From Halobaculum limi (GTDB lineage: Archaea > Halobacteriota > Halobacteria > Halobacteriales > Haloferacaceae), in contig NZ_CP120468.1 in the NCBI RefSeq assembly GCF_029490015.1, positions 1,550,001 to 1,614,000 of the forward strand: a stretch of 64,000 bases of DNA. Reading direction: 5' to 3'. Shown here one piece after another: positions 1 to 40,575 of the stretch; position 1 is the stretch's first letter, and each line of letters begins with the position of its first letter. Below the pieces are notes generated by a model. The model had not been told where the DNA came from and searched no databases. It saw only the letters and a list, made by a program, of their open reading frames with translations. The position numbers were made by a program, and so were the translations under genes.

Positions 1-2628
1 GACGAGATCGCAGACCTGCTCGCGAATGGGTCGCTCAACGGTCGAGTCATCGATGAATCACCGGAATACAAAGCTGGAACCGATAGTGAGGACGTAGAAT
101 TCAAGCCAACGCAGTCGGGTGAATACGTTCTTGTTGCGGTCGCGAAAGAAGACAACAACGACCCCGGTGTGACCGGGCCAGGAGAGAACGACCCCGCGGG
201 CACGTTGAGTGTCAAGGGGAACGTGACCATCGTCGGTGCGGACTTCCTGACTGTCAAAGAAGGCGACCCACAGGTTAGCGTCTCTGCGGACGCAGGCGGC
301 ACGGGTGCGAACGTCACGTTCGACGCGAATACGTCGAGTACCTTTGGCGATGATGACGTCGTTCACACGGTTCTGCTCATTGACGAACAGAAGTTCGAAA
401 GCCAGAGTATCGAACTCGTCATCGACCAAGAGAACGGTAGTGTCGAGGTCGAGACTTCCATCGAGAACGCACAGGGCGTCGTCAACTCACGTCCGGGTTC
501 CTCTGATGTTGAAGTGCCTGACCTTGCTGGCATCTCCATCGAAGGAACGGAAATCAACACAACCGAAGAACTCCTCGGCGCACTCCGCAATGAGAGTGAC
601 CGGGTGACGTTCACCTTCACCGACAACACGACGATCAACGCCTCTGCGACCGCAGTCGTCGGGAGCGCGAATGAGTCGCTTGAGGTTGGAACGCTGCAGG
701 AATGGCCCAGCCAGAACTACACGTACCTCTACGTCGGTTCCTCAACTGAGTCGGGCAAGACGGTCGCCAAGCGTGGTGAAGTCAGTCTCAAAGACGGCGT
801 CCAGCTTGATCTGAGTTCCAGTGACGAGGCGATTCAGGCTGGAAAAGAGGTCACGTTTACCCTACGCCGTGAAGACTCCGGCGAGCGGACGAAGGGTACG
901 CTGACGATTGAAGGGCCAAGTGGTACGACGACCGTCGAGACCGACGAAGACGGTGAGGCAGTCGTGACGCTCGGCGAGGTCGGTGACTACACCATCACTG
1001 CCGAGAAGACCAGCACGGCAGACATCGACTTCCTCAAAGACTCGGTCGACGTCAAGGTCGTTGAGAATAACGAAGCGTACGTTGAGTCGTTCTCGCTGTC
1101 GGCCTCTGAGGTCGAACCTGGTGAGGATGTGACTGTGACATTCACCGCGAAGAACCCGACTGATGAGGAAGACGATGAAACAGTTCAGCTGTTCGTCGAT
1201 GGCTCGGAAGTCGACACGAAGAAAGTCACCGTCGATGCGAACTCTGAGGTGACTGAGACGTTCACCATCTCGTTCGACGACGAAGGTGAGTACGACATCT
1301 CCGTCGACCAGCTCCCCGAGAAGACGCTCACCGTCGCCAAGGATGATGACGATGGAGACGCACCGAAAGCGGATATCTCCGTCACCGGCGGAAGCCTCTC
1401 GGATAGTTCGGTGCGGACGGGAGAGAACATCAACATCAAGGTCAACGTGGAGAACACCGGCGATGCGTCCGGGTCCTTCAAGGTGAAAGTCACCGCCAAC
1501 GGCCAACAGATCAATAGTCGAGAAGTTACCGTTGGTGCTGACTCGAGCAAGACTGTCACGTTCTCGCGAAGCTTCAGTAGCGTCGGGTCACGCACGATCC
1601 GCGCGAACGGTGTTCGGATCGGACAGGTCACCGTTAACGCCGGCGGTGGAGGCGGAGGCGGTGGAGGAGGCGGTGGCGCTCCGCCAAGCGGAGGCAGCGG
1701 TGGACCGCCAGTTGACGTCATCGAGACGCCGTCTGGTGTCACCGTCAATGTCGGTGAAGGCCGGATCGGCCAGCGAGTCAGCGTTAACGTCGGGAACGGC
1801 GTCTCCCAGAGCGGAACTGGGCTGACCGGGCTTGACATCGACCTCGGTGACAGTACCAGCGGCTTCCGTGTCGAAGTGACGCCGCCGCAGGCCAACCCGC
1901 CTGCAGGCCGGCCAGCAGTTGATGAAGCCCGTGACGGCGCTCGTGGGCTGTTCTACTTCGAGGCGAACCCGCTCGGCAGTGACGTTCCGCAGTTCAACGG
2001 TGTGACGTACACGTTCTCCGTTGCGACGTCTGACCTGCCCGAGGGTGTCACCCCGGAGGAGGTTGTCCTCCTGCGGTACAACGAGGAAGAGGAGCGCTAC
2101 AACACGTTGGAGACGACGTACCTCGGTAACGAGCAGTACGAGGCACGCTCGCCCGGCTTCTCGCTGTACGCCATTGGCGTTAGAAACCGCCAGGCGTCCT
2201 TCTCCATTCAGGAGACGGGCATCAGCACGCAGGAACTCGAGGTCGGCGAGGAGACCACTGTGGAAGCGACCATCACCAACAACGGTGACGCAAGCGGGAC
2301 GTTCACCGCCAACGTCACTGTTGATGGCGAGGTCCGCGATGAACAGTCGGTCGAACTCGGTCCCGGCGAGTCCCAGACGGTCGAGTTCACTGTGAGCTTC
2401 GATGAGACGGGGACGTACGACGTCGCCGTCAGCGGCCAGGCGGTCGCGACCGTTGATGTCATCGAGGCCCAGGGCCCGGCTGACGACTCTGGTGGAGATG
2501 GCGACGGCACTGCAACTCCCGGCGGCAGCGGTGGGAGTAACATCGGCATCATCGGGATCGTACTCCTCGTGGGGGCGCTGCTGGTGGTCGGTGGCTTCGT
2601 CCTCCTGCGCCGCCAACAAGAAGAATAG
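1..2628 (+). CDS. Large transmembrane surface protein with CARDB-like and PGF-pre-PGF domains (5' partial)
   Basis: The reading frame is open from the first base of the window, so the N-terminus and signal peptide lie upstream; 875 codons are visible. The visible part is a chain of beta-sandwich modules, including CARDB-like repeats. A run of about 11 glycines plus a Gly/Pro linker (near 1642-1710) leads into a PGF-pre-PGF-type domain (about 1717-2190). A further CARDB-like module follows, then a Gly/Ser/Thr linker and one C-terminal membrane helix with a short RRQQEE tail. This architecture indicates an exported protein anchored by its C-terminus and exposed on the cell surface. It lacks the PGF-CTERM tripeptide despite having the companion domain. 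The last ~1.2 kb is closely paralogous to 11618-13672. Function beyond surface adhesion or structure is not known. A UUCG-loop hairpin follows the stop codon. Confidence 0.85.
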   Translation, partial: DEIADLLANGSLNGRVIDESPEYKAGTDSEDVEFKPTQSGEYVLVAVAKEDNNDPGVTGPGENDPAGTLSVKGNVTIVGADFLTVKEGDPQVSVSADAGGTGANVTFDANTSSTFGDDDVVHTVLLIDEQKFESQSIELVIDQENGSVEVETSIENAQGVVNSRPGSSDVEVPDLAGISIEGTEINTTEELLGALRNESDRVTFTFTDNTTINASATAVVGSANESLEVGTLQEWPSQNYTYLYVGSSTESGKTVAKRGEVSLKDGVQLDLSSSDEAIQAGKEVTFTLRREDSGERTKGTLTIEGPSGTTTVETDEDGEAVVTLGEVGDYTITAEKTSTADIDFLKDSVDVKVVENNEAYVESFSLSASEVEPGEDVTVTFTAKNPTDEEDDETVQLFVDGSEVDTKKVTVDANSEVTETFTISFDDEGEYDISVDQLPEKTLTVAKDDDDGDAPKADISVTGGSLSDSSVRTGENINIKVNVENTGDASGSFKVKVTANGQQINSREVTVGADSSKTVTFSRSFSSVGSRTIRANGVRIGQVTVNAGGGGGGGGGGGGAPPSGGSGGPPVDVIETPSGVTVNVGEGRIGQRVSVNVGNGVSQSGTGLTGLDIDLGDSTSGFRVEVTPPQANPPAGRPAVDEARDGARGLFYFEANPLGSDVPQFNGVTYTFSVATSDLPEGVTPEEVVLLRYNEEEERYNTLETTYLGNEQYEARSPGFSLYAIGVRNRQASFSIQETGISTQELEVGEETTVEATITNNGDASGTFTANVTVDGEVRDEQSVELGPGESQTVEFTVSFDETGTYDVAVSGQAVATVDVIEAQGPADDSGGDGDGTATPGGSGGSNIGIIGIVLLVGALLVVGGFVLLRRQQEE

Positions 2629-2928: not shown

Positions 2929-5900
2929 ATGAGTGACCAAGACTCGTCATCGTCGATTGCGTGGACACAGAAGGTAGCGGTCGTGCTGATTACCGTACTC
3001 GTTGCGTCTTCACCAGTAGTGGGAGCAGTCTCGGCAGGTCAGGCGACGACCGATAGCGACAGCTCTCTTTCAATCCCATTACTTGGGGCAGACAGTGGTG
3101 AGTGGCTCGGTGGCCTAGAGACGGATTCCACGGCACAGACAGCAACAAGCACGCCAGGTCCGAACGAGACAACAACACCGCGAACAACAACCAGTACACC
3201 ACCGCCGTCTGAAACAGCAACACCAAGCGCTACATCGACACCGACCTCCACGCCAACGTCGACGCCTGCGTCAACTCCTACTTCTACTCCGACCTCGACC
3301 CCGACTTCGACACCAACGACGACACCAAGTTCCAACTCGACCTCGACACCAACATCCACCCCTACCTCCACTTCAACGCCTGAGTCGACCTCGACTCCAA
3401 CATCGACTCCAGATCCCACGAACAATTCTACAACAACTGCTGGGGAAACAAACTCAACGACCAACGAGTCTACCTCCACAGCCCAACAGACTGCAGAAAC
3501 GCTGGCAGCGAAGAATATCTCGGAAGGGCAAATCGAGGGTGAGTTGGCTGACGGTGAGGTTCACGTCTACCAGATCGACCTCGATGCGGGTGACACGCTC
3601 AATGTTACGCTGTTGTTCGAAAATGCAGCTGGCAATCTCGACTTGGTTGTCGGTCGAAACACTGACTCCGACGCGTATCTCGAACAGCAACGCGAATACT
3701 CCCGGAGCGACACCGACAACGAGAGTGTCGCACTTACTGCTCGGGCCAACGATACATTCACCATCCGCGTGTCTGGGCGCACCGAAACAACGAACAATTC
3801 CTACACACTCGACGTCAACCGAGTTACTCCAGACGAGACGGACCGGAAAGAGCCGAACTGGAATCCCGCCTCTGCATCAACCGTCACTGAAGGTCGATAT
3901 AACCTGAATATCACGACCGGAGACACAGATTGGCACAAGATCGACCTCGATGCGGGGGACACACTGACGGTCATTACTCGCTTCAGCAACGCAGCCGGCA
4001 ACCTTGACTTGTCGATTCACCGTGATACTGACGGTGATGGATATTACGAGCGGCTCGAAGACTCCCACTCGAATACTGATAACGAGCAGGTGGCGTTCAC
4101 CGCGCGGGCAAACGCGTCGTACTATATCAACATCAAAGGCCGCGACCAGTACTCCACTCGTGCTGCATACACACTCGTTCTTGACCGCGTAACGCCGAAT
4201 GAAACGGCTGCGACAGAGCCCAACTGGAACCCCGAATCGGCTGCTCACATTACAGAGGGAACGTATGCCGACCGTGAGATCACACGGGGAGACACTGACT
4301 GGTATGCGATCAACCTCAGTGCCGGTGATACGGTAAACATCAGCGCGATTTTCAGCGACGAAATCGGAAATCTCGATTTGGAAGTCCGCCGTGATCGCGA
4401 CTCTGACACCTACTACGAATACATCGAAGGCACCTCCAGCAACAGCGATAACGAGCAGGTTGCGTTTACCGCTCGGGCGAACGATACCTACTACATCCAC
4501 ATTGAGGGGCGCAACCAGTACACCACCGCAGCAACATACGACCTCATCGTCAATCGGACGACGCCTGATGAGACTGACAGTGACGAGCCAAATTGGAACG
4601 CACAGTCGGCTGCACCCATTACGGAAGGACAGTACGAACGTGAGTTCCTCACTGGTGACACAGACTGGTATGCGCTCAGCCTGAATGCCGGTGATACGGT
4701 CAACATCAGTGCGCTATTCAACAACAGCCAGGGCAATCTCGATCTGACTGTCCGTGCCAACACTGACGACGATCAATATCTCGAGTATGTCGAAGGCGCT
4801 TCAACCAACTCCGACAACGAACAGGTGGCGTTCACCGCGCGGCAAAACACGACATACTACATCCATATTGATGGCCGGGAGCAGTACTCCACGAGTGCGG
4901 ACTACACGCTTGCGATTGACCGCGTCACGCCAAACGAAACCGATGCGACCGAGCCGAACTGGAACACCAAATCGGCAACGCCGCTCTCGGAAGGCAGGTA
5001 CAATCTGGAGTTCACACAGGGAGACGATGACTGGTATGCGGTCGACTTGAACGCAGGTGATACGCTCAATCTCTCCGTCTTATTTGAGCAAAGCGACGGA
5101 AATCTCGACCTGTCCGTGCGCTCAGATACGGATGGTGATGGGTATCTCGAGTATGTCGAAGACTCAAGTACCAATTCGGACAATGAACAGGTCGCCTTCA
5201 CGGCACTGCATTCGGGGACGTATTATGTCCATATCGACGGCAGAGACCAATACACAACTGCTGCGCCATACACGCTTGTCGTCGACCGCGTCACCCCGGA
5301 TGAAAACGACCCCGCAGAGCCCACATTCAGTCGAGCGAGCGCTGCGCCACTTCCCGCGAGCGGGACAACGTTCAATCTGACACGTGGTGACGTCGACTGG
5401 TACGTAATTGGCGTCCGCGCTGGGGAGGAGCTCACCATCTCTGCTGGTTTCGACCATAGCGTGGGCGACTTGGAAATGGACGTGTACAGCAACACTGACC
5501 AGGATGGCGACCTCGACTACGTCGACTCCGCCCAGACAAACACCGATGACGAGTCACTCAGTCTCGGTGTCTCTGAAACTGGCTTCTATTACGTTCGAGT
5601 GTATGGCGATGATGACGACACGACAGCTACGCCATACACGCTGACCACTTCTTCGACAGGGAGTGAGCCCCCTGTGAACCTCTCGGTTACACGTGAGGAA
5701 CTACCCAACGGGAGGCTCAATATCTCGGTTGTTGTGACAAATACGCGAGCGAGCAGCGCAGATCAGGTCACGGTTGATCTCGCACAGATCGGTGGTGACT
5801 GGACCATTGAAAGCAGGAGTTCTGAGGGTGGCCAGTGGTCATCAGATTTCTCCTGGCAGTGGGCATCGCTGGCGGGTGGTGAATCGAAGCGAGCGTCGAT

Positions 5901-8900
5901 CATTATCGACAAGCGGACCGATCAGCGCCCGAGCCCGCGGGTCGCGACTGTGACTGTCTCGAATAGTTCCGCGAATACTGACGCTGAGGTTGTCTCACTG
6001 TGGCGAGAAAATACGACGACGACCGGTGACGAACTTACGGTTGAGTTCGACTGGGAGCCGACGAGCCCGACAACTGCAGACAGCATTACGTTCACCGGCA
6101 ATGCCTCAACCACAGCCAATGCATCAGACATTAGCTATGCTTGGGATCTCGATAGTGACGGTCTCGCTGAGGCGACAGGCACCTCTGCAACCCGCTCATT
6201 CCCGCTGGCCGGGGAGTTCCCAGTTACGTTGATGGTTCGCGACGGGAATGGGAATACCAATCGGACGACGAAATTCGTCTCCGTGTCGCCAGCTGGAAAC
6301 CTCGATGAAGAGCCGAACGATCTGCAAGAAGACTCGACGAACGTCATCGAAGGCCGTTACAATCGGGAGATTACGAGCGGCGATGTCGATTGGTATGCGA
6401 TCAATCTGTCTGCTGGAACAACAGTCAATATCTCGACGTTGTTCGACACTGATACTGGCGACCTCAGCCTCGTCGTTGGGCGAAATACAGACAATGATGA
6501 GTATCTCGAAGAGCGATACCGCTCGTACACAGACACAGATAATGAGCAATTGGCGTTTACTGCCACAGCGAACGCGACTTATTACATCCGCGTCGAAGGC
6601 GAGCGAGATACGTCAACTGCGCCATACACGCTCTCGATTGATCGGGTAACCCCCGCGGAGACCGATGCCTCCGAGCCAAACTGGGATCCGGAATCTGCAA
6701 CGAAACTGACCGAGGGGCGATATGACCGAGAGCTGACCGTTGGAGACACCGATTGGTATGCAATCAACCTCAGCGCTGGTGACACGCTCACAGCCATTGC
6801 CCGATTCAGTAATAGTGCTGGGAATCTCGATTTGACCGTTCGACGCGACACCGATGGCGACCAATATTACGAGTACATCGAGGGTGCCTCCAGCAACTCC
6901 GACAACGAGCGCGTCGCGTTCACGGCCACGCAAAATGGCACCTATTACGTTCATATCGACGGCAGAAATCGTGACACAACAAGCGCTCTCTACACACTGG
7001 TGCTGAATCGCGTCACGCCTGATGAAAACGACGCTTCAGAGCCCACGTGGGATAGCGACTCTGCTGCAGAGGTTACTGAAGGGCGGTACAACCGTACCAT
7101 TACTGCTGGGGACGTCGACTGGTATGCGGTCGACCTCAATGCCGGTGATACAGTCAACATCTCCGTCCTGTTCGACAATAACGTCGGCAACCTCGATTTC
7201 GTTGTTCGGAGTAATCACGATAACGACGACTATCTCGAATACATTGAGGGAGCCTCCAGTAATTCCGACAACGAACAGGTCGCATTCACGGCTCGCCACA
7301 ACGGCACCTACTACATCAATATCGAGGGCCGTCACCAGTACACAACCCAAGCGCCCTACACGCTGGCAATTGACCGCGTTACACCTAACGAAACAGACGC
7401 AACCGAGCCACAGTGGGATCTTGACTCGGCCACCACAGTGACCGAGGGTCGATACGATCTTGAGTTCACCCAGGGTGACACGGACTGGTATGCCATCAGG
7501 CTCGACGCTGGTGACACGGTAGATATCCGTGCGCTGTTTGAAGATAGCGAAGGGAACCTAGACCTCACAGTTCGACACAACAGAGATGACGACGACTACG
7601 TCGAATATCTCGAAGACTCCACAACCAACACAGATAACGAGCAGCTCGCATTCACAGCGAAGCAGTCTGGTGTCTACTACATCCACGTCGATGGGAGAAA
7701 CCAGTACACGACTGAGACACCATACACGCTCGATATTGACCGGGTGACGCCAAGCGAGAATGACGCCTCTGAGCCCACCTATAACAGGGATTCTGCAGCA
7801 GTCATCACGGATGGGACGATCAGTCGGAACCTCACCCGTGGAGACGTTGATTACTACGTGGTCGGGCTCGCTGCGAATGAGCAGCTCTCACTGGATGTGC
7901 TCTTCGACAACAGCAGAGGAAATCTGAACGTCGAGCTGCGAGGGAACACAGACGACGACGAGTACGTCGAGTATATCGACCGCGCATCGAGCAACTCCGA
8001 TAATGAGAGTCTCAGCTACCGCGCAGAGCGCGCTGGCGTTTACTACATCAAAGTCACTGGCCGTGATGATGACACGACAGCCGCACCGTATCGCCTCCGG
8101 CTCAACACGAGCGATGAAACCCCACCTGTCGACGTTGAAGCAACGACCAAACAACTCGATTCCGGGAACCTCAACCTGACAATCACCGTCACGAACACGC
8201 AGTCGAGTGCAACGAGCGATGTCACGGTCGATGGGTCCCAGATAGGTGGCAACTGGCAAATTGAGTCACACAGTTCAGAAGGCGGTCAGTGGAGTTCTGA
8301 TATCTCCTGGCAGTGGGACTCACTTGCAGCCGGTGAGACACGGCAGGCAACCGTTATTCTGAGCCCCCGCAGCCAGGCGTTGAGTACGCCCCGGTTTGCG
8401 GTGATCAGTGCCCAAAATAGCAGTGCAACGACTGATGTGGAAGCTGCCTCACTGTGGGTTGGCAATCGGAGTGATCTGACCTCACTGGAGGCTACCTTCG
8501 ACTGGCAGCCACAACCCCCAGCGCCTGGCGAGTCACTCACGCTGAACGCGACTGTCACAAGTTCCAGTGCGTCAGTGACCGCATACCGCTGGGATGTCGA
8601 CAGTGATGGGTACATTGAGGCCACAGGAAAGACTGCATCCACATCGTTCCCGATGCAGGGAATGTTCCCAGTTGAATTAGCGGTCGAGAATGCGGATAAC
8701 CAGACCGCCCGTGTGACAAAGTTCGTCACTGTTGGCGATGCAAATCGTGATGCGGTCGCTTCGAATGAGCAACAATCCGACGCGACGCCACTTCTCGAAG
8801 GCCGCTATCGTGGCTCGATTACGGCTGATGACACCGACTGGTACGCGGTCAACCTTGCTGCTGGCCAGACGGTGAACATCTCTACTCGCTTCTCGAATCA

Positions 8901-11463
8901 GGAGGGCAATCTCGATCTCGTTGTTGGTCGGTCCACTGATGACGATGCGTATCTCGAAGAGCGGTACTCCTCTTCGAGTTCCACTGATGATGAGCAACTC
9001 GCGTTTACCGCCCAGGCGAACGCGACCTACTACATCAAAGTCGTGGGCAGAGATGCCTCGACAAACGCCTCGTACACGCTCTCGATTGATCGAGTCACCG
9101 CTGCGGAGACTGATGCATCTGAGCCCAACTGGGACCCCGCATCTGCAGCCCAAATCACAGAAGGGCGCTATGACCGTGAGCTCACGACCGGCGATACTGA
9201 CTGGTATGCGATTGACCTCAATGCCGGTGACACGCTCGCCGTCATCACGCGGTTCAGCAACGATGCAGGCAATCTTGATCTCACTGTCCGGACTAATCGC
9301 GATGACGACGACTACCTCGAGTACGTTGAAGGCGCCTCGAGTAACTCTGATAACGAGCAGGTCGCATTCACTGCTCGCCACAACGGCACCTACTATATCC
9401 ATATCGACGGCCGCGATCGCGACACGACGAACGCGCCGTACACGCTCATTGCCGACCGCGTCACGCCTGATGAAACAGACGCTGGTGAGCCGACGTGGAA
9501 CGCAGGATCGGCCGCGCCGATTACTGAAGGCAGCGGGACGTATGAGATAACGCGCGGTGACACCGACTGGTACGAAATCTCGCTCAATGCCGGTGATACG
9601 GTCAACATCACTGCGTTCTTCGACAACAGTGCTGGAAATCTCGATATGGAGGTGCGTGCGAATACTGATGATGACGACTACCTTGAGTACATCCGCGGTT
9701 CGAATTCAAACTCGGATAACGAGCAACTCGCATTCACAGCTCGTCACAACACCTCCTACTACATCCATATCGATGGGCGGAATCAGTACACGACAGCCGC
9801 CCGGTACACACTCGATGTTGATCGTGTCGAGCCGGATGAGACGGATGGCTCTGAGCCACAGTGGGACCGTGAGTCGGCAGCCACGATCACAGAGGGCAGA
9901 TACGACTTCGAGTTCCCTGCAGGCGACACAGACTGGTATGCGATTTCGTTGAATGCCGGCGACTCAGTCAACATCACGGCACTGTTCAACAACAGCCAGG
10001 GCAATTTGGATATCGAGGTTCGCCACGACGATGATGACGATCGCTATCTCGAATACGTAGAGAGCTCGTCGACGGAGTCCGACAACGAGCAACTCGCGTT
10101 CACGGCGCGGCAAGATGGCGTCTACTACATCCACGTCGATGGCCGGGACCAAGACCGGACGGCAACGAACTACACTCTCGACGTTGACCGCCTCACGCCA
10201 TCGGAGAACGACCCCTCCGAGCCGACATACGGCACGAGCTCTGCCGACCCGGTTGAGCCAGGGGCTTACAATCGGACACTCGTTCACGGCGACGTTGACT
10301 GGTACGTGATTGGCCTGTCTGAGGGAGAACAACTCAACACCTCCATCCTATTCGATGATAGTGTTGGGAATCTCGACCTTGAGGTCCGTGCTGACGACGA
10401 TGATGACGGATACATCGAGTACATTGACGCCTCAGACAGCTACACCGATGATGAGCAGCTGACGATCACTGCTGACACCACTGGGGTCTACTACATCAAG
10501 GTTGACGGCCGAGATGACGACACAACCGCTGCGCCGTATCAACTCCGTGTGGACCGCAGTGGTGGGCCAGCCCCGCTTGATCTTGATATCGAGAGCCGAA
10601 AATTACCCAATGGCTCTGTGGATATCTCTGTCGTCGTCACGAACACGAAGTCCACGACCGCCACCGACGTCATTGTTGATGGCGCACAAATCGGTGGGAA
10701 TTGGCGTGTCGTCAATAACAGTTCCGAGGGTGGTGTCTGGGGCGCAGACATCACGTGGCAATGGGAATCGATTGCAAGCGGAGAGTCGAAACGGGCAACG
10801 CTCGTGCTCGCGCCTCGAGACAGTGCGCGACGGACGCCTCGATTCGCCACCTTCGAGGCACGCAATTCGACAGCCCGCCTTGACACAGCGGTGACCTCGT
10901 TGTGGCTCATTAACCGCTCACAGAGAGCGTTCAATGCCGATGCGGAGTTCACCATCACGCCAGACACGCCCGTTGCCGGTGAACAGGTGCAGTTCGATGC
11001 AAGTCCATCGACTGGTAACTCGACAATCGTCGCGTACAGATGGGACCTTGACAACGACGGTGCCGTCGATGCGACAGGGCCGACAGCTGCTCGCACATTC
11101 ACCAGCGGCGGGGATTACTTGGTCACAGTCTCAATCGAGACGGAGCGGGGAGCTACAGATCAAATTACAAAACGCCTCACCGTCGCTGCAAACGAATCTG
11201 ACTCCGATAACGGAACGTCGGCTCCGCCTGCACTCCCCGGGTTTGCGGCGCCAACTGACCCGGATGGTGATGGCTATTACGAAGACGTCAATGGTGATGG
11301 CAGGTTCACCATTGCCGACATTCAAACGCTGTTCACCAATCTGAACAGCTCAGCGGTTGCTGAGACACCTTCGGGCTATGACTTCAATGATGACGGCACG
11401 ATCGATATCGTGGACGTCCAACGGCTCTACGTTGAGCTAGTCCCACCTGAAGACTCAAAGTAA
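2929..11463 (+). CDS. Giant secreted protein: 16 PPC-like repeats, three PKD-like domains, C-terminal dockerin
   Basis: The protein has 2,844 residues from ATG 2929; an in-frame TTG at 2911 would add six residues before the signal peptide and is less likely. A Sec-type signal peptide occupies about residues 1-36. A long Thr/Ser/Pro linker (about 75-185) probably forms an O-glycosylated stalk. There are then 16 copies of a ~122-residue PPC-like (bacterial pre-peptidase C-terminal) domain, recognisable by GDTDWY, GNLDL and an Asp-rich DxDxDxYxEY loop that could bind calcium. They fall in blocks of 6, 5 and 5, each closed by a CARDB/NEW3-like domain (SSEGGQWSSD motif) and a PKD-like domain. The C-terminus carries two dockerin-type calcium loops (DVNGDGRFTIADIQ and DFNDDGTIDIVDVQ). 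There is no protease domain and no membrane anchor. The likely role is an extracellular scaffold or adhesin, possibly docked onto another protein. Confidence 0.88.
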   Translation: MSDQDSSSSIAWTQKVAVVLITVLVASSPVVGAVSAGQATTDSDSSLSIPLLGADSGEWLGGLETDSTAQTATSTPGPNETTTPRTTTSTPPPSETATPSATSTPTSTPTSTPASTPTSTPTSTPTSTPTTTPSSNSTSTPTSTPTSTSTPESTSTPTSTPDPTNNSTTTAGETNSTTNESTSTAQQTAETLAAKNISEGQIEGELADGEVHVYQIDLDAGDTLNVTLLFENAAGNLDLVVGRNTDSDAYLEQQREYSRSDTDNESVALTARANDTFTIRVSGRTETTNNSYTLDVNRVTPDETDRKEPNWNPASASTVTEGRYNLNITTGDTDWHKIDLDAGDTLTVITRFSNAAGNLDLSIHRDTDGDGYYERLEDSHSNTDNEQVAFTARANASYYINIKGRDQYSTRAAYTLVLDRVTPNETAATEPNWNPESAAHITEGTYADREITRGDTDWYAINLSAGDTVNISAIFSDEIGNLDLEVRRDRDSDTYYEYIEGTSSNSDNEQVAFTARANDTYYIHIEGRNQYTTAATYDLIVNRTTPDETDSDEPNWNAQSAAPITEGQYEREFLTGDTDWYALSLNAGDTVNISALFNNSQGNLDLTVRANTDDDQYLEYVEGASTNSDNEQVAFTARQNTTYYIHIDGREQYSTSADYTLAIDRVTPNETDATEPNWNTKSATPLSEGRYNLEFTQGDDDWYAVDLNAGDTLNLSVLFEQSDGNLDLSVRSDTDGDGYLEYVEDSSTNSDNEQVAFTALHSGTYYVHIDGRDQYTTAAPYTLVVDRVTPDENDPAEPTFSRASAAPLPASGTTFNLTRGDVDWYVIGVRAGEELTISAGFDHSVGDLEMDVYSNTDQDGDLDYVDSAQTNTDDESLSLGVSETGFYYVRVYGDDDDTTATPYTLTTSSTGSEPPVNLSVTREELPNGRLNISVVVTNTRASSADQVTVDLAQIGGDWTIESRSSEGGQWSSDFSWQWASLAGGESKRASIIIDKRTDQRPSPRVATVTVSNSSANTDAEVVSLWRENTTTTGDELTVEFDWEPTSPTTADSITFTGNASTTANASDISYAWDLDSDGLAEATGTSATRSFPLAGEFPVTLMVRDGNGNTNRTTKFVSVSPAGNLDEEPNDLQEDSTNVIEGRYNREITSGDVDWYAINLSAGTTVNISTLFDTDTGDLSLVVGRNTDNDEYLEERYRSYTDTDNEQLAFTATANATYYIRVEGERDTSTAPYTLSIDRVTPAETDASEPNWDPESATKLTEGRYDRELTVGDTDWYAINLSAGDTLTAIARFSNSAGNLDLTVRRDTDGDQYYEYIEGASSNSDNERVAFTATQNGTYYVHIDGRNRDTTSALYTLVLNRVTPDENDASEPTWDSDSAAEVTEGRYNRTITAGDVDWYAVDLNAGDTVNISVLFDNNVGNLDFVVRSNHDNDDYLEYIEGASSNSDNEQVAFTARHNGTYYINIEGRHQYTTQAPYTLAIDRVTPNETDATEPQWDLDSATTVTEGRYDLEFTQGDTDWYAIRLDAGDTVDIRALFEDSEGNLDLTVRHNRDDDDYVEYLEDSTTNTDNEQLAFTAKQSGVYYIHVDGRNQYTTETPYTLDIDRVTPSENDASEPTYNRDSAAVITDGTISRNLTRGDVDYYVVGLAANEQLSLDVLFDNSRGNLNVELRGNTDDDEYVEYIDRASSNSDNESLSYRAERAGVYYIKVTGRDDDTTAAPYRLRLNTSDETPPVDVEATTKQLDSGNLNLTITVTNTQSSATSDVTVDGSQIGGNWQIESHSSEGGQWSSDISWQWDSLAAGETRQATVILSPRSQALSTPRFAVISAQNSSATTDVEAASLWVGNRSDLTSLEATFDWQPQPPAPGESLTLNATVTSSSASVTAYRWDVDSDGYIEATGKTASTSFPMQGMFPVELAVENADNQTARVTKFVTVGDANRDAVASNEQQSDATPLLEGRYRGSITADDTDWYAVNLAAGQTVNISTRFSNQEGNLDLVVGRSTDDDAYLEERYSSSSSTDDEQLAFTAQANATYYIKVVGRDASTNASYTLSIDRVTAAETDASEPNWDPASAAQITEGRYDRELTTGDTDWYAIDLNAGDTLAVITRFSNDAGNLDLTVRTNRDDDDYLEYVEGASSNSDNEQVAFTARHNGTYYIHIDGRDRDTTNAPYTLIADRVTPDETDAGEPTWNAGSAAPITEGSGTYEITRGDTDWYEISLNAGDTVNITAFFDNSAGNLDMEVRANTDDDDYLEYIRGSNSNSDNEQLAFTARHNTSYYIHIDGRNQYTTAARYTLDVDRVEPDETDGSEPQWDRESAATITEGRYDFEFPAGDTDWYAISLNAGDSVNITALFNNSQGNLDIEVRHDDDDDRYLEYVESSSTESDNEQLAFTARQDGVYYIHVDGRDQDRTATNYTLDVDRLTPSENDPSEPTYGTSSADPVEPGAYNRTLVHGDVDWYVIGLSEGEQLNTSILFDDSVGNLDLEVRADDDDDGYIEYIDASDSYTDDEQLTITADTTGVYYIKVDGRDDDTTAAPYQLRVDRSGGPAPLDLDIESRKLPNGSVDISVVVTNTKSTTATDVIVDGAQIGGNWRVVNNSSEGGVWGADITWQWESIASGESKRATLVLAPRDSARRTPRFATFEARNSTARLDTAVTSLWLINRSQRAFNADAEFTITPDTPVAGEQVQFDASPSTGNSTIVAYRWDLDNDGAVDATGPTAARTFTSGGDYLVTVSIETERGATDQITKRLTVAANESDSDNGTSAPPALPGFAAPTDPDGDGYYEDVNGDGRFTIADIQTLFTNLNSSAVAETPSGYDFNDDGTIDIVDVQRLYVELVPPEDSK
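3535..11196 (+). repeat. Higher-order coding repeat: three blocks of PPC repeats plus spacer and PKD domains
   Basis: GD-DWY motifs recur near 3553, 3919, 4290, 4654, 5023, 5386, then 6380, 6742, 7109, 7472, 7838, then 8828, 9191, 9554, 9924 and 10290. The period is about 366 bases within a block, with ~990 bases across each block junction. The block period is about 2.45 kb (unit 2 of block 2 to unit 2 of block 3). Units keep their identity by position: first units share GRNTD/GRSTD and LEERYxS, second units share a TRFSN-like segment, last units share a GVxWY-VIG-like core. This implies duplication of whole five-unit blocks, with one extra unit in block 1. Confidence 0.85.
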
Positions 11464-11617: not shown

Positions 11618-13672
11618 GTGCGATCGAGTGTTTGCGTGGTTGTTGTCTTCCTCTGCTGTAGTCTTGTGCTCCCTGTGATAGCTCCAACATCCGCGGCGAC
11701 TGCGGCTGATATCACCGTTGTCGATGGGAGTGTTACTCCTAATTCTGTGAGTACAGGCGGGAGTGTGCTGATCACAGTCAGTGTCGAGAATACTGGTGAT
11801 ACCTCAGGGACCAAGGACATCCGCATCACCGCGAGTGGCTCGCAGGTTGCGACGCGGAGCGTCACTGTCGATGCTGGCTCGACCAAAACTATTGACACGA
11901 CAGTGAGCTTCGGGACTGCCCGCTCATATCTAATTCGAGCGAATGGTGTCCGACTCGGGACTGTCGAGGTGACTGAGGGAAGTACCGCACCAGGGACAGA
12001 CGTCATCGAAACATCTTCTGGCGCGACGATCAACATTGGTGAAGCCCGAATTGGACAGCAAGTGACCGTGGGCACTGGCCAAGCAGTTACGCAGGGCAGC
12101 ACTGGGCTCACAGGGCTTGAGATGGATTTAGGTGACAGTACTGGTGGCTTTCGCGTCGAGGTGACGCCACCGCAGGCGAGCCCGCCCGCAGGTCGCCCAG
12201 CAGTTGATGAAGCCCGTGACGGCGCTCGCGGGCTGTTCTACTTCGAAGCGACTCCTCTGGGAAGTGAGGTCCCCGTATTCAACGGTGTGACGTACAAATT
12301 CTCCGTTGCGACACCGGACTTGCCAGACGGCGTCACGCCCGAGCAGGTCGTTCTCTTACGATATAACACAGATGAGGAGCGCTGGGCCGAGCGACCCACA
12401 ACGTACCTCGGTAACGAGGAGTACGAAGCGCAATCACCAGGGTTTTCATCATATGCAATCGGCGTTAGGGTTCTGGAGCCGACATTTTCGATCCAAGAGA
12501 CAGGTATTACTACGCGTGAACCCGCGGTTGGTGAAGAGACAACTGTAGAAGCGACCATCGCCAACACCGGTGACGCGAGTGGGACGTTCACCGCAAACCT
12601 GACTGTCAACGGTGCGGTTCTGGATGAACAGTCGGTCGAACTCAGTCCCGGCGAATCACAGACGGTCGAGTTCACTGTGAGCTTCGATGAGACAGGAGCG
12701 TACGACGTCGCCGTCAGCGGCCAGGCAGCCGCTGTCATTGAGGTAGTCGAAGCTCAAGCCCCATCAGAACGCGAATCAGTTACTGAGGAATCAGAAACAC
12801 AGGTAGCGGTATCTACTGAGACTCCCCTGCACCTTGTTGAACGGACTATCGTAGGCGTTGGAATCTTTGGAGTTGTCTTGGGTGCGATCTACTTCCGCAG
12901 CCGCCGCGAGGATGATCTTGACGATACGTCTGGTGATGCAGTGACAGGAACTGCTGATACAGATAGCCGCCTCGACGCCGTCGACGATCTCGTGAGCGAT
13001 GCTGAGGCTGCCCGCGCGAACGGGAACTTCGATACCGCTGTGGAAACCTACGATGAAGTATTGGAGGAGTATACCGCGATCCGTGAGACGCTCCCAGCCG
13101 ATGATGACCAGAGTGACGAGGTCGAAACGGCAGTCACGGCTGCGCAAACCGCCCGGAGTGAGGTTGCGACATTGGCGACGACGAAAGAAGACGTCGAGGA
13201 GACGCTTGCAGCTGCCGAACGGCAGTTCCTCGAGGGAATCATTGCCCACGTGCAAGGAGAGTCGGTGCTCGCGAAAACACGCTATCGGAGTGCCCGGAGT
13301 CGCTTCGAAGAGAGCACTGATCTGCTCTCGAATGTTGATGCAACTGAGGTGCTTGAGACTGTCTCAGTGACGCCAGAGACGCAGGCGAGCCTCTCACAAC
13401 TCCCGGAGTCGCTTGAGTCGCATCCAGATATCTCAGCTAAGTTGTTGGAGACACTCGCGGAGACCGATGTGACCACACCCGCAGACCTTGCTGATAGCGA
13501 CCTTGACTTGGAAGAACAGTTCACAGCTGTGGAAGCTGACGACGACGAGCTGCTTGCTACACTGACCGCACTCTCGTGGTGGCACGAACCAGACGAGGAG
13601 AAAGAATGGACGCTCGAAGAGATTGAGCGGCGAATCGACCAAGCTGGTCAAGGGCGGCGCGCGTGCTTGTGA
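11618..13672 (+). CDS. Single-pass surface protein with PGF-pre-PGF ectodomain and large helical cytoplasmic tail
   Basis: The protein has 684 residues from GTG 11618, which opens directly into a signal peptide (about 1-29). Domains in order: CARDB-like (31-118), PGF-pre-PGF type (127-283), CARDB-like (288-376), an acidic linker, one membrane helix (about 409-426), then about 258 residues predicted in the cytoplasm. The tail is acidic and helical with a TPR-like segment (EAARANGNFDTAVETYDEV, near 475) and ends in a Trp-containing region. The ectodomain is a close paralogue of the end of the protein at 1-2628, but only this copy has a large internal tail. It converges on the FtsZ-like/GTPase operon. 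By inference, it could couple the extracellular matrix to an internal machine. No enzymatic motif is seen. Confidence 0.82.
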   Translation: MRSSVCVVVVFLCCSLVLPVIAPTSAATAADITVVDGSVTPNSVSTGGSVLITVSVENTGDTSGTKDIRITASGSQVATRSVTVDAGSTKTIDTTVSFGTARSYLIRANGVRLGTVEVTEGSTAPGTDVIETSSGATINIGEARIGQQVTVGTGQAVTQGSTGLTGLEMDLGDSTGGFRVEVTPPQASPPAGRPAVDEARDGARGLFYFEATPLGSEVPVFNGVTYKFSVATPDLPDGVTPEQVVLLRYNTDEERWAERPTTYLGNEEYEAQSPGFSSYAIGVRVLEPTFSIQETGITTREPAVGEETTVEATIANTGDASGTFTANLTVNGAVLDEQSVELSPGESQTVEFTVSFDETGAYDVAVSGQAAAVIEVVEAQAPSERESVTEESETQVAVSTETPLHLVERTIVGVGIFGVVLGAIYFRSRREDDLDDTSGDAVTGTADTDSRLDAVDDLVSDAEAARANGNFDTAVETYDEVLEEYTAIRETLPADDDQSDEVETAVTAAQTARSEVATLATTKEDVEETLAAAERQFLEGIIAHVQGESVLAKTRYRSARSRFEESTDLLSNVDATEVLETVSVTPETQASLSQLPESLESHPDISAKLLETLAETDVTTPADLADSDLDLEEQFTAVEADDDELLATLTALSWWHEPDEEKEWTLEEIERRIDQAGQGRRACL

Positions 13673-13764: not shown

Positions 13765-14931
13765 TCAGATCGGCAGGGCGTCAGGGAAGAGAATGAATGC
13801 GAGTGAACCGCCCACGAGGAGCAACCCAGCCAGGACCATCACAATCGCGAGTATCGTTCCTTGGTCGGCAGGAATGACACCGCTGGAACTGCCCGAGCTA
13901 TTAAACGAGTCTCCGAGTGAGCCCTCTTCAGGGCTGCCGAAGCTCCCACTACTGCTTTGAGAGGTGCTTGTTCCGCTTGTAGCTGACCCGGTCGTCGACG
14001 ATTGTGCTGTGGAAGTCGACCCCGGCGTCTTGAGCGTCGGCACTTGCTGTGTGATCTTCTGGCGGATTTCACCATCCGAAAGGCCGTGTCCTTTCGAGAG
14101 GCCTTCAACCGCTTCACGAATCTCTGTGACGGCCTGCTGCACCCCAGAGGGGTACATCGAGACTGTCGACGCTGAGTCGGTCTGTGCACGTCCGGTTTGG
14201 AGTGTGGGAACTTCGCCGAACACGACAGACCGGATCTCATCATCATCCAATCCGTGCGTCCGTGAGAGTTCGTTCACCGAACTGCGGACCGTGTTCACCG
14301 CCTCAAACACGTTCGACTCACGCGCAGACTCTTGGGCAGTTGACCACTGCTCAGCCGTCTCACCGAGCGGCGTCACACCACGGCCCTTCCCGGGGACGAC
14401 CACGAAATCGTACGTCGAGATCGAACTCGACTCAATCGAATCTGTGATCGCGGCTGTCGTGTAATTGGAGACGAACACGTTCAGTAAGCCCACAGCGTTG
14501 TCTTCATCGGCAACACCGAGTCGCGGGCGCCGTCCCTGTGAGAGGAGGTCCGAGACAATGTCGTGATCTACCTCGGTGCCTGGAACCTCATACTCCCCAT
14601 TACGAAGCACTTGATAGAGGTTCATCTCGCTGCTTGAGTTATCAATGGTATACCCCCAGTCACCCTCGATCGTCTCTTCGAGCGCATTCAACAGTTCACT
14701 GAGGTACTGATTATCTGAGCGTGTCTCAAAGCGCGCGTAGAACTGCTCTGAGCGCGCATTCTCGGACTCCTTGGCTCTGAAGAATACCGTGATGGTGAGC
14801 TGTCTGCCTGTCTCGATGGCGAATCGCACCCCGCCATAGAACAGGTCTTTGATTGATTCGTCGGTCTCGGCAGTAGCACTGCCATCCGCGTAGCGATTCC
14901 CCGTCGTGTCGTATACTGTGAGCGTTGACAT
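13765..14931 (-). CDS. Tail-anchored protein of the FtsZ-like/GTPase operon
   Basis: The protein has 388 residues and no signal peptide. The N-terminal ~180 residues look like a mixed alpha/beta cytoplasmic domain with no motif I recognise. Two copies of a ~33-residue helical motif follow (about 214-246 and 269-301), each with a VxxLSxxHGLxDxEIR core and ending VPTLxT. Next is a Ser/Thr/Gly-rich linker (about 302-352) and one C-terminal membrane helix (about 358-383), giving a tail-anchored topology. It is the last gene of the operon; its ATG is 3 bases after the GTPase stop codon, so the two are probably co-translated. The duplicated motif may be a docking element for the GTPase or the tubulin-like protein (inference). 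I do not recognise the family; it is not an obvious von Willebrand A protein. Confidence 0.75.
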   Translation of the reverse strand: MSTLTVYDTTGNRYADGSATAETDESIKDLFYGGVRFAIETGRQLTITVFFRAKESENARSEQFYARFETRSDNQYLSELLNALEETIEGDWGYTIDNSSSEMNLYQVLRNGEYEVPGTEVDHDIVSDLLSQGRRPRLGVADEDNAVGLLNVFVSNYTTAAITDSIESSSISTYDFVVVPGKGRGVTPLGETAEQWSTAQESARESNVFEAVNTVRSSVNELSRTHGLDDDEIRSVVFGEVPTLQTGRAQTDSASTVSMYPSGVQQAVTEIREAVEGLSKGHGLSDGEIRQKITQQVPTLKTPGSTSTAQSSTTGSATSGTSTSQSSSGSFGSPEEGSLGDSFNSSGSSSGVIPADQGTILAIVMVLAGLLLVGGSLAFILFPDALPI

Positions 14932-14934
14932 CGT

Positions 14935-16377
14935 TTACCTCAGCTTTTTGAGTAGTTCATCGAACCCGAAGCGGTTCGTGTTGCCGTTACGGTCGCGCAG
15001 TGGGACCCGTTCGCCATCGTCGGTGACTTTGGTCTGGTAGTACACCGGATGGATCTTCGCCCCGGACGTGTCCTGCACCAGCGTTCGCACTGCCTGACTG
15101 TTCTCCCGGAGTGTCTCGTTGGTGAACTCGCGGAAGTCATCGAAGTACTGGTGCGCCTCAAGCGACTGCTGCTCGCGGAACTGGTCAGCGAGGATGTCCG
15201 CTTTCGTTGCGACGAGAATGATGTCCTTCCCAGAGGCAACGTTGAGGATGTCGAAGTACGGCTCGATGCCGAGCTTCTCGTTGTTGTGATATCGCTCAAC
15301 GTCCACGAGAAGGACGATGGTGTCTGCCCCTTGGACACGCTCTGCAAGCCGCTGGAGCGTTGTGTCGTCGACCTGCTGGTCAGGGTTCATCAACACGTCT
15401 GGAAGTCGCTCAAGATACTCACCCGCGTAATCGAGGCTGGACACCCCGATGTTCTTCGGGAAGACCGTTCCGTCGATGAACTGGAAGCTGAGGTCTTCGA
15501 TGTCCTGTGCGCCTGTGGAGTCAACGTTCCACCCAGCTTCCGAATCTGCGGCGTCGAGTGTCCCCACAAGGTCCATCAGGTCACTGCTCGGGTTGAGTGG
15601 CGTGTCAGAGTCGCGGCTTTCCGCGTCTTCGAGCGCCGCGAGGTACGCTCCGACGAGGAACAGCGACTTCCCCGAGCCACGCGGCCCGAGGACGAAGAAC
15701 TGCTCATCGGAGTCGTACTTCACGAATCGGCCGAGCGTGACGACGAACACCCCGCTCATCAGTAGGTTGGTGAAGATACCCGAGGTATCCACCGAAAGCG
15801 AGGGTGTAACCGCGTGCAACACCAGCCCCTGCTGACTCACGGTGAACACTTCGGGATACTGAATATGGTACTCGAGGAGCCCAACGACGACAACCAGCGT
15901 CAATACGTAATACAGCAGAAGCGCAGAGCGACGGAACTCACGTGCCTCCGCCGTCTGCACCTCAGTCAGCTTTCTGCCGCCACCAAGCAAGACACCGATG
16001 ACGACACCTGCGGCAACCCACCCGTAGTTCTGGCCAAGCCCGAGATTCGGGAGGAACAGCCCGATTGATGACAGGGCAGCGAGCGCGGTTGCCGTACCAA
16101 CCCACAGCAGAATCCCCTGAACGCGCTTTTTCGGGTCGAGCGTCAGCAGGACCAACAATCCGAGGAACGTCCCAAACGCGAATGAGGCGAACTGTGCCAG
16201 CGTGATCGACAGGATGGGATCCAGCGAGATGATGATCGGCCGGATGAAATGTGAGTCTCGCCACGCCTCACCGAGGGTGAGGAATAACGGGCCGGCGACG
16301 GCAATCATCACGACGAAATAGATCAGCAGCTTGATCTTCTCGCCGTGATTTTCAAGTGTTTCTGTGAGGCCAGCCAT
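14935..16377 (-). CDS. Polytopic membrane protein with cytoplasmic TRAFAC-like GTPase domain
   Basis: The protein has 480 residues. Hydrophobic segments lie at about 15-37, 56-80, 88-108, 118-132, 150-170 and 200-217. A P-loop GTPase domain follows: G1 GPRGSGKS (231-238), a DYAG G3-like motif (316-319), a hydrophobic strand ending LLVDVERY, and a G4-like TKAD (391-394; the usual N is T). The domain is expected on the cytoplasmic face. The ATG overlaps the stop codon of the FtsZ-like gene by one base (TAATG), which indicates translational coupling. Pairing of an FtsZ/tubulin-like protein with a distinct GTPase is the hallmark of the FtsZl context described for bacteria and archaea. A role in membrane remodelling is inferred from that context only. 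Confidence 0.82.
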   Translation of the reverse strand: MAGLTETLENHGEKIKLLIYFVVMIAVAGPLFLTLGEAWRDSHFIRPIIISLDPILSITLAQFASFAFGTFLGLLVLLTLDPKKRVQGILLWVGTATALAALSSIGLFLPNLGLGQNYGWVAAGVVIGVLLGGGRKLTEVQTAEAREFRRSALLLYYVLTLVVVVGLLEYHIQYPEVFTVSQQGLVLHAVTPSLSVDTSGIFTNLLMSGVFVVTLGRFVKYDSDEQFFVLGPRGSGKSLFLVGAYLAALEDAESRDSDTPLNPSSDLMDLVGTLDAADSEAGWNVDSTGAQDIEDLSFQFIDGTVFPKNIGVSSLDYAGEYLERLPDVLMNPDQQVDDTTLQRLAERVQGADTIVLLVDVERYHNNEKLGIEPYFDILNVASGKDIILVATKADILADQFREQQSLEAHQYFDDFREFTNETLRENSQAVRTLVQDTSGAKIHPVYYQTKVTDDGERVPLRDRNGNTNRFGFDELLKKLR

Positions 16378-19300
16378 TACCGATCCCGCCCTCCGTCGGT
16401 CAGATCGCCGGTTGGCCCGTCATACTCAATTGCTTCATCAGGAGTGTCGTTCCCCTCTTTCGTGGGAACGACCTCAATGTACTCCTGCAGAAGGTCCTCA
16501 CGGATTGACGCCTCATCGCGCAGGAAGAACTCTATGTCATCCGGGTTCTCAAGGTTGAGCACGTCATTCCGGCGGACGTAGAAGCCCTCTTCGAGCCCGT
16601 ACGTGTGGTGAACGAGGATATCGAGTTCGTCGCTGTTCAGCTTCGCACGGTAGCCCTCGCGGTAGCCATCAGCCTCTGCCTCCGCACGGAGGTTGTCGAG
16701 GAAGATGCCGCCGATGAACACACCAAGCCCAATGTCCCAGTTGCCGCCTGCATCAACCGGGTAGGAGGCGTAATTCTCCTCACCGGGGCCGAGATTGTAC
16801 GCCCCTGCGAAGATTTCCTGAAGCCGGGCAGCCTCTTCACCAATCTGATCGATGGCTTGGCTGACTGCACCAACTGCGATCTGCATATCCTCGTAGCGTG
16901 CCCGCGAGCTACTGATACGGCGTTTGCGCAGCCCGGAGTACTTTGAATTGTGGATATTTCGCGCCAGCTCTTCAAGCGAAGAGCGCAGCCGTTGGCGCTC
17001 GGCTTCGTCATCGAAGATTCCGCTTTCGTCGATATCCGAGTCATCGCGAATCTGCAGAATATCGTTCGGGCGGACCGTCTTCATGTAGCGGTACTCCTCT
17101 TCTTCAGTGGAGACCGCAGACGACCGCTCTTCACCGTAGGAACTCCGCCGCCGATTGTACTCTGCGTGGGAGTTGACGAACGTCTCCCGACGGTTGTTGA
17201 TCTCCTCGAATAGCGACACAGTTGCCGAGAACAGCTCTGCACGTCCGCGTGCGTCTTCAAGATCGGCTTCGAGGTCGTCTTTGCGCTCGGAAATGTCTCC
17301 GGTGTCAACGATGACATCGGTGAGTGCATCCTCGACAATTTGCTTCACGTCAGCCAGCGAGCGGCCTCGGTCAAGTTGCGTGCCGACCTTCTGCATCGCA
17401 CTATCAACCTGCGGGCCGTTCTCATCGAACTGCTCGCGCAGCTCCATAATAATCTGGTCACGGCGCTGTTCTTCCTCGCGTTTGACGCGGTCGATGAGCG
17501 ACGTCCCATCGTACTCGACCTCGATACTCAAGTTGCTCCCCGCACTCGAGATGGCGAACACGCCCTTGTCATCGAGCTGGTTGCGCTTCGTCCGGTAGTT
17601 CTTGCGCGCCTGCTGGCGTTCCTCTTCAGCCGACGACTCCCAGGGGAGAATCTTCTCGACAGTCCCCTCCTCAGAGTTCATTTTCAGGAAGGACTTCTTC
17701 GCTTCCGCAAGGTCTCTGACCGACGACTGGATGTCCTGCTCTTCAGAGGAGATGTCGATCCCAATCGCTTCCAGTTCATCAGAGAGGGTATTGAGCGCCT
17801 GCGTGACGTCCTGACTCGAGATATTGTCGATTTCCTCGGGGTCAGTCGCGTTATCGATATTCATCGAGAAGTTGCCGATCGCCGTCTCTAGCGACCCAAC
17901 ACGCGACTCAATCGAAATGTCCTGACACGCCTGGAAGTCTTCGAAGTCCATCCGGACCGCCCGCTCCCACTCATCAGCGCGGCGTTCGATCTCTTGGCGC
18001 TGCGTGTCTCGCTTTTCTTCGAGTTCCTCGCGAACTTCTGCGAGGTCGCTCTCGAGACGCTCCATCCGCTCTTCAGCGTCTTCGCGCTTCGCCTCAAGCT
18101 GGTTGAGACGAACGCCAGCGTTGATCCCTTCGTCATCAAGCGCTAGCAGGTAGCTGAGCGTACTCTGAATCCGTGGTGCATCGACCCGACGCAGGTCCTC
18201 GAGCAGCTCCTTGCGTCGGCCAAGATTCCGGATGTCACTTCGAATGATGTCTGCGAGCTCTTTGTCGATGCTATCGACGAACTGCTCACTCTCGCCGCCG
18301 AGGCTGGCCGTACCTGCACGAATCGAGCTGGAGACGATCTCAACCTGTTCGGCGACGTCTTCCGTCTCGTTGCGTGCCTCACCGATGATCTCCCGGAAGA
18401 TGGAGATCGACTCATAGCCGAGTTCCTCGAAGAGGTCGACCTCTAACAGCGACTCAAGCGAGTCGAAGCGGTTTTTGAGATCGGAACGATCAGAGTCGTG
18501 AAGCTCGCCCGTCTCGCCATCATCGAAGTGGCGTGCGAAGAAGCGGTCGAGTTCGCCGTAGATTTCCTCCTCGGCTTCGAGTGCATCCTGCTTTTCGGAG
18601 AGCAGGTCGGTCATCTTCGTCTTCGCGCCTTTGATCGCGTCGACGTTGTATCGCAGCACCTGCGGAATGCCGATAATGAACGGCGCATACGACGGCATAT
18701 CCGCGAACGGGTCTTCCATCCCCGTCTTGTTGAAATACGAGACGATGAGATAGACAGCTGCACGGTCGAACTCAACGAGTGCGTCAGAACTCTGGAGAAT
18801 GTTTGCCTTCTTCCCGCCGAAGTCGGTCGGGTCAATCGGCATCAACACGCGGTCTTTGAAGACATCTTCACCCTGCAGCGAGAGATACTCCAACTCAGAG
18901 AGTGCTGCGTGTGCGTTCGCGTTTTCAGCGTCTCCTTCGGCGTCGTTCGGGAGCACACCGAACAGCGTGATTTCTGCGGTTCGTTGGGTACGCTTGAGAT
19001 GTTGGACGAGGTCGATAAACATGCCAGACCCACTCCCACCACCAAGTCCTGCGATGACGGCGACCTTTCCTCGGCTTGGGAGGTCGATCTGCGTTCGGAC
19101 CTCGTCATCTTCGGCATACGCCTTGTAGTAGAGACCCTTACCCAGCCCTCGTTTGCGGACCACACCTGTGGCGAAATTGAGATTCTCGTTGATGTACTCT
19201 GGTCGGAGCCACCAGTTCTCGCGGTCCATCCCAACGCCGTCCGCTATCCGTGGAATGACCGACTCGCCGATCAAGTCATTCTGGTCGTGCAGTTGGATAT

Positions 19301-37555: not shown

Positions 37556-37587
37556 GATTCTCATCGAAATACCACGCTTTCTTATTT

Positions 37588-40412: not shown

Positions 40413-40546
40413 AATCACGCTTAGCTACCAGAAGGTAAATAATACTTAGTGGTTCACTCTGCATCAAGTGAGCGAAGTAGACGTGTAGCAACGACGTAGA
40501 ACAAATTAAATATGTAGATGGTATGTTTCTCGAAGAGGATAAAGTC

Positions 40547-40552
40547 TATATA
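40547..40552 (+). promoter_or_regulatory. TATA box of the GT2 gene
   Basis: TATATA centred 26 bases before GTG 40576 is the archaeal TATA distance. It supports the GTG as both transcription and translation start (leaderless) rather than ATG 40618. Confidence 0.5.
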
Positions 40553-40575
40553 CCAACCTATGTAAGCCGCGTACA

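Follow-up and report, generated by a model that had tools for sequence, protein, structure and literature searches.

The collagen-binding domains (CBDs) of the clostridial collagenases ColG and ColH are described as a subclass of the PPC domains, and calcium raises the stability of both these and the PKD-like domains of the same enzymes (PMC4356367, available text). Collagen binding by the ColG CBDs requires calcium, while a PPC segment from Grimontia does without it (PMC6168687, available text). Type I dockerins, for their part, are on record in ANME archaea (PMC9012536, available text) and, in haloarchaea, on GH26 enzymes and GAG lyases, where a role in substrate binding has been suggested; the word cohesin is never used in the available text of these haloarchaeal papers (PMC10963439, PMC13260240). 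No description of a haloarchaeal cohesin partner, or of a multi-PPC haloarchaeal protein of the kind reported here, was recognised in the open-licence literature.

The window analysed here, a stretch of 64,000 nucleotides from Halobaculum limi, contains one unbroken frame at 2929-11463 (+) with a predicted product of 2844 amino acids (an in-frame TTG lies upstream of the ORF start at 2929, at 2911). The protein has 16 PPC stretches (Pfam, E 4.6e-114; 373.8 bits against a cut-off of 25.9). They are arranged in three blocks of six, five and five (A to C), each ending in one Ig-like and one PKD domain; a signal segment and a Ser/Thr/Pro linker precede the first block, and a dockerin follows the last (Table 1). 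On balance, this is probably a calcium-stabilised extracellular PPC arm that is tethered by its dockerin. In a six-frame search of the 3.48 Mb host genome, each of the 16 PPC at the locus exceeds the cut-off singly, and one further PPC is found elsewhere. The protein has no cysteine, and 22 lysines against 500 aspartates and glutamates. No peptidase model matches it in Pfam and NCBIfam scans, and residues 8-37 are its only hydrophobic stretch, with no second segment at the C-terminus. The linker is probably O-glycosylated.

The three closers, of about 220 amino acids each, share 39-47% pairwise identity. The initial annotation had them as CARDB-like plus PKD-like. The second half of this stands, with three stretches matching PKD_4 (Pfam, E 8.5e-22) and a PKD match (PF18911/PF00801) of 77.4 bits against a cut-off of 27. 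The first half does not: neither the whole protein nor any of the three closers matches CARDB (PF07705) in Pfam, and the closest model to the first domain is DUF11 (E 6.5e-5), at 23.7 bits under a cut-off of 24.6.

Table 1. Positions in the window of the features discussed in the text; COHL coordinates are those of locus L112.
Feature	Positions	Strand	Basis or remark
n1, membrane-anchored CARDB / PGF-pre-PGF protein, 1054 aa, upstream of the giant gene	1-2628	+	starts before the window
Sec-type signal segment, aa 1-37	2929-3039	+	hydrophobic stretch aa 8-37
Thr/Ser/Pro-rich linker, aa 68-196	3130-3516	+	51 T, 25 S and 21 P in 129 residues
Block A, PPC A1-A6	3484-5661	+	Pfam, unit order, identity/tree
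PPC A1	3484-3831	+	
PPC A2	3847-4194	+	
PPC A3	4216-4563	+	
PPC A4	4582-4929	+	
PPC A5	4948-5295	+	
PPC A6	5314-5661	+	
Block A closer, Ig-like domain	5683-6015	+	nearest Pfam model DUF11
Block A closer, PKD (limits approximate)	6055-6285	+	loop DLDSDGLAE at aa 1073
Block B, PPC B1-B5	6307-8115	+	Pfam, unit order, identity/tree
PPC B1	6307-6654	+	
PPC B2	6670-7017	+	
PPC B3	7036-7383	+	
PPC B4	7402-7749	+	
PPC B5	7768-8115	+	
Block B closer, Ig-like domain	8137-8469	+	nearest Pfam model DUF11
Block B closer, PKD (limits approximate)	8503-8733	+	loop DVDSDGYIE at aa 1889
Block C, PPC C1-C5	8755-10563	+	Pfam, unit order, identity/tree; C2-C3 structure predicted
PPC C1	8755-9102	+	
PPC C2	9118-9465	+	
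PPC C3	9484-9831	+	
PPC C4	9850-10197	+	
PPC C5	10216-10563	+	
Block C closer, Ig-like domain	10585-10917	+	nearest Pfam model DUF11
Block C closer, PKD, aa 2676-2752	10954-11184	+	Pfam; loop DLDNDGAVD at aa 2706
Type I dockerin, aa 2784-2833, two EF-like loops	11278-11427	+	Pfam
n3, partial paralogue of n1, downstream of the giant gene	11618-13672	+	65.5% identity over 374 aa
COHL domain of the host	L112:5115-5510	-	
COHL domain of the host	L112:5861-6253	-	

A protein built on this plan might also be a cell-cell adhesin or the stalk of a biofilm, with the PPC array merely a spacer. Its giant, repetitive, secreted architecture, its Ser/Thr/Pro linker and the lack of any catalytic domain in Pfam and NCBIfam would all suit such a role; it has, however, no recognised ligand-binding tip, the N-terminus being linker, and we consider this possible but rather unlikely. 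The PPC arm would share with the bacterial calcium-stabilised tandem beta-sandwich adhesins (RTX/BIg; NCBIfam NF033510, Ca_tandemer) the proposed principle that calcium stiffens a long arm. Those adhesins belong to a different domain family than PPC, however, and the giant protein has no match to NF033510 in an NCBIfam scan at E up to 0.1.

The blocks are also visible in the DNA, as repeats at spacings of about 366 and 2450 nt. At the protein level, units from different blocks are 61.1% identical when their positions correspond (17 pairs) and 50.2% when they do not (68 pairs), while neighbours along the chain reach 55.7% (13 pairs); the permutation p for an effect of position is 5e-5 (20,000 shuffles of positions within blocks). 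Units are thus closer to their counterparts in other blocks than to their neighbours, and positional clades appear in a FastTree protein tree, with support of 0.946 for the first units, 0.906 for the second and 0.915 for the penultimate pair B4 and C4, which A5 joins at 0.764. No resolved grouping emerges for the middle units (A3, A4, B3 and C3). With the units of two other genomes (G083 and G266) added in IQ-TREE, the second-unit clade is recovered at 89%, B1 with C1 at 94% and B4 with C4 at 95%, but the clade of last units, at 0.998 in FastTree, reaches only 52%. A three-level hierarchy with position-specific units, as first proposed from the sequence, is borne out by these comparisons.

Third codon positions agree between units at 42.1%, against a background of 39.6% (p 0.03). 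Such near-saturation indicates that the blocks are old duplications kept by selection rather than products of recent amplification or mis-assembly. The unequal block lengths suggest that one PPC was either gained by block A or lost from blocks B and C.

Searches of 392 genomes from the order and 170 from the family gave no homologue that equals the giant protein in size. The Ig-like closer is matched at E <= 0.001 in 11 of the 392 order genomes, the host included, and among the 170 family genomes (ten of them from other members of the genus) there is no full-length match and a single partial one (G145, E 1.6e-6). The best match outside the host (E 7.6e-13) is in G083, the only one of the 26 genomes of its own family with a full-length match to the domain. 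The protein concerned (L088:5409-8729, -) has five PPC, an Ig-like closer and a PKD in the same order as here, and similarly long hairpins (23-26 residues). It has a single block, however, and its tail is different: the PKD is followed by more Ig-like sequence and then, by eye, an EF-hand-like end, with no dockerin recognised by Pfam. Its hairpin loops lack the Asp pattern of the giant protein (see below) in four of the five units. The PPC-Ig-PKD block therefore exists as a unit elsewhere, with three copies here; the whole block, beyond the single domains, acts as a unit of duplication, and the single-block relative provides a reference point. The idea that positional identity predates the split from G083 was not borne out, since only one of its units (u5) leans to a position class (the last, at 33.0% identity against 26.5-31.4%) and its units group with one another (59% support, IQ-TREE).

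Haloarchaeal PPC matches are mostly in single-PPC frames of about 530-560 amino acids, the size of secreted subtilases. The initial annotation considered a 16-copy protein without a protease domain unusual. The giant protein does lack one, but the claim of rarity is overstated. Proteins with no recognised protease have five PPC in G083, G243 and G295 and four in G033, and a proteobacterial MAG contig (L110:1-5142, +) encodes at least 14 in tandem in an open-ended frame, with no peptidase seen by eye. Other arrays include one of six PPC fused to a putative metallopeptidase domain, which has a HELTH motif but no name in Pfam (L089:5103-8765, -); one of five with a single PKD, where Pfam alone detects three of the five (L096); and arrays of five and four (L105) and of four (L102). 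These five loci share tandem PPC with the giant protein, but not its Ig-like/PKD block hierarchy, and their hairpins are mostly of 15-18 residues. Arrays were looked at in 20 chosen regions and PPC matches occur in 185 of the 392 order genomes, so a longer array may exist. A scan with one peptide pattern for the PPC unit, which misses divergent arrays, gave 24 pattern matches, two of them confirmed, both in bacterial MAGs; for the closer domain, a scan of 84,980 species gave 46 pattern matches, and none was confirmed. Plasmid and phage collections gave no match.

An AlphaFold2 model of the C2-C3 pair (21 alignment rows) has a pLDDT of 89.4 and a pTM of 0.67. The structure closest to it is the ColH CBD 3jqw (Z 16.0, rmsd 1.8 over 107, 22% identity), and the ColG s3b structures score Z 14.2-14.7. 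Foldseek ranks the calcium-bound tandem 5iku first (E 1.2e-11); its domains match singly, but the arrangement of the pair differs (rmsd 16.4 over 215; range 16-17). The predicted fold of the PPC units is therefore the beta-sandwich of the ColG/ColH CBDs, and with the Pfam result confirms the identity first given to the repeat. AlphaFold models carry no ions, and that of a whole block (three alignment rows) is poor (pLDDT 64, pTM 0.30), too weak to support any claim about block shape. A designed repeat protein, the sole PDB profile match of the 16 units alone, was judged spurious.

ColG and ColH (s3, s3a, s3b) thus resemble the giant protein in fold and in combining PPC with PKD-like domains; they differ in having one or two CBD copies on a metallopeptidase, where the giant protein has 16 PPC, no peptidase and a longer hairpin. 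In domains of the CBD type, acidic and Asn residues near the N-terminus belong to a calcium site. In this region EP is kept in 14 of the 16 units and both Asp of DxD[WY] in 15, but Asp follows EPN in B1 alone; W, F or Y comes after EP[NTQ] in 13 units, while most other aligned PPC units have EPND or EPNN.

The dockerin at the C-terminus was overlooked in the initial annotation, and changes the likely mode of attachment. It scores 29.4 bits against Dockerin_1 (PF00404; cut-off 22.9), its two calcium-loop repeats are DVNGDGRFTIAD and DFNDDGTIDIVD, and its weak PDB matches (E 0.009-0.08) include dockerin-bearing cellulases. Described archaeal dockerin proteins are likewise exported and of type I, but in the available text they bear enzymes or binding proteins (PMC9012536, PMC10963439, PMC13260240) rather than a PPC array. 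The host's only other Dockerin_1 is on a 2232-aa subtilase, where it is directly preceded by a domain here called COHL; the gene next to it encodes a 1734-aa PGF-CTERM protein that begins with another COHL.

COHL was found in 17 of 60 relatives, the host included. Dockerins occur in ten of these 17 genomes and in four of the 43 others (Fisher p 1.5e-4), an association that is not fully independent since some dockerin frames also contain COHL; all seven genomes with strong COHL matches have a dockerin. At eight places in seven genomes (L156-L161 among them), a COHL frame lies downstream of a dockerin frame and adjoins or overlaps it. The Pfam cohesin model (PF00963) matches none of 19 COHL members and nothing in the host genome. 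The top two PDB matches of COHL are scaffoldin chains (E 0.0066 and 0.0096), and hhalign aligns it to cohesins with a probability of 24%. COHL may be an unannotated haloarchaeal cohesin-like family, of marginal similarity to known cohesins, and a candidate partner of haloarchaeal dockerins. Another member of the order (G038, 2.7 Mb) has 56 Dockerin_1 and six COHL matches, possibly a large dockerin-based surface system.

If the dockerin bound the COHL of the subtilase or of its PGF-CTERM neighbour, the giant protein could serve an extracellular protease complex as the arm that captures substrate, with PPC domains that bind insoluble protein in the manner of the ColG CBDs. The CBD fold of the units would fit this, as would the presence of the host's only two dockerins on this protein and on a COHL-bearing subtilase; given that the two genes are about 1 Mb apart and that the cohesin homology of COHL is marginal, we think it unlikely.

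The calcium proposed to stiffen the PPC arm could be bound in a hairpin of each unit. Between the strand NLDLxV and the motif SDNE there are 21-22 residues in all 16 units, compared with 15-18 in 47 of 57 PPC units from 12 other proteins (lengths from alignment columns); the other ten are five from G083, four from L105 (21) and one from L111 (20). The pattern [DNS]xDxDxxx[DE] is found in 16 of 16 units and in two of the 57, a contrast that is partly by construction because the pattern was built from the giant protein, and in an average of 1.1 (maximum six) of 16 units with shuffled residues. Conserved and variable positions alternate: position 1 is N in nine units, D in six and S in one, positions 3 and 5 are always D, position 7 is Y in 15 and D in one, and position 9 is E in 15 and D in one, while positions 2, 4 and 6 vary (position 6 is Gly in four). 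Within the whole protein the pattern has 20 matches, in the 16 PPC, the three PKD domains and once just before the dockerin.

Short calcium loops use positions 1, 3, 5, 7 and 9. The PPC hairpin loop is arranged like the calcium loops of other proteins, and may bind calcium; the presence of Gly at position 6 in only four units speaks against this. The terms PPC, pre-peptidase and collagen are absent, on a term search, from the main text of a paper that surveyed the contexts of Dx[DN]xDG in 2011 (PMC3123361), so that the hairpin may be a new context for such a loop. With 16 repeats, the protein offers as many chances to test whether the PPC fold gained a calcium site when its hairpin grew longer.

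The loops could instead be an adaptation to high salt only, with no specific ion bound. Haloarchaeal proteins are acidic, and the strict motif Dx[DN]xDG is present in only three of the 16 hairpins. The Asp and Glu content of the loop (0.29) is equalled elsewhere (0.06-0.29 in the 12 other proteins; 0.29 in G243, 0.28 in G248, 0.25 in G083), so acidity alone is not unique to the giant protein. What distinguishes it is spacing: whole units are about as acidic as others (0.19, against 0.15-0.22), yet the loop is longer and has acidic residues at fixed alternate places in all 16. A pure salt effect is accordingly doubtful, and the Asp-rich loop reported from the outset for every unit is substantiated as a feature of its own.

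The giant gene is flanked on both sides by genes for related CARDB / PGF-pre-PGF membrane proteins, n1 and n3; n3 also has a hydrophobic segment, and its tail weakly matches TPR. In three genomes of the genus (G004, G006, G009), DUF4350 and MoxR come 1.6 kb after n1, whereas in the host 19.2 kb separate n1 from DUF4350 and hold the giant gene, n3 and a tubulin-like gene set. That the giant gene is a low-impact accessory, a passenger of this variable segment, is improbable: the interval itself and the lack of any Ig-like closer match at E <= 1e-5 in the ten other genomes of the genus speak for it, but an intact frame of 2844 codons and residues kept against near-saturated third positions argue for long selection.

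The tubulin-like set, at 13765-19592 (-) and absent with the rest of the segment from the three relatives, has three genes, for a Tubulin_2-like protein of 1071 amino acids, a membrane protein in which one region resembles a P-loop GTPase, and a protein of 388 amino acids that has a hydrophobic segment at its C-terminus. Further along the window, G+C falls to 0.43-0.44 at 36000-44000 (0.51-0.61 in other 4-kb stretches); judged by eye from their first residues, proteins encoded there resemble a glycosyltransferase, a flippase-type membrane protein and sulfatase-like enzymes.

For the calcium-stabilised, dockerin-tethered PPC arm that we favour, the domains, blocks, loop, fold and dockerin are computed; calcium, stiffness, docking partner and ligand we infer. 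A very acidic, cysteine-free surface protein would be exported by the Sec route, its Ser/Thr/Pro-rich linker leading into three tandem PPC blocks, each ended by Ig-like and PKD domains. These blocks would go back to ancient duplications of the PPC-Ig-PKD module, of which G083 has a single copy. The dockerin would attach the protein, by a non-covalent contact, to a cohesin-like domain of a second exported protein, perhaps one anchored in the membrane, although dockerins of haloarchaea may have another role. There would be some 22 candidate calcium sites, in the PPC hairpins, the three PKD loops, the loop before the dockerin and the two dockerin loops, and the calcium-rigidified fibre suggested in the initial annotation is plausible. 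Most likely, the stiffened arm would hold or capture material (neighbouring cells, matrix, or a protein or polysaccharide substrate) at a distance from the S-layer, each PPC domain contributing one of many weak binding sites.

Through the giant protein, a candidate family of cohesins for haloarchaeal dockerins has come to light. In a more speculative scheme, which we think unlikely to hold, the PGF-CTERM protein with its COHL as anchor, the subtilase with dockerin and COHL, and the 16-PPC protein would form a three-part, protease-centred analogue of the cellulosome, in which the long calcium-stiffened arm captures substrate. If this were true, haloarchaea would assemble complexes on their surface by pairing dockerins with a cohesin-like domain that has so far escaped annotation, the subtilase could both plug in and receive, and the hairpin would add to the PPC fold a new calcium site, present 16 times in this protein.
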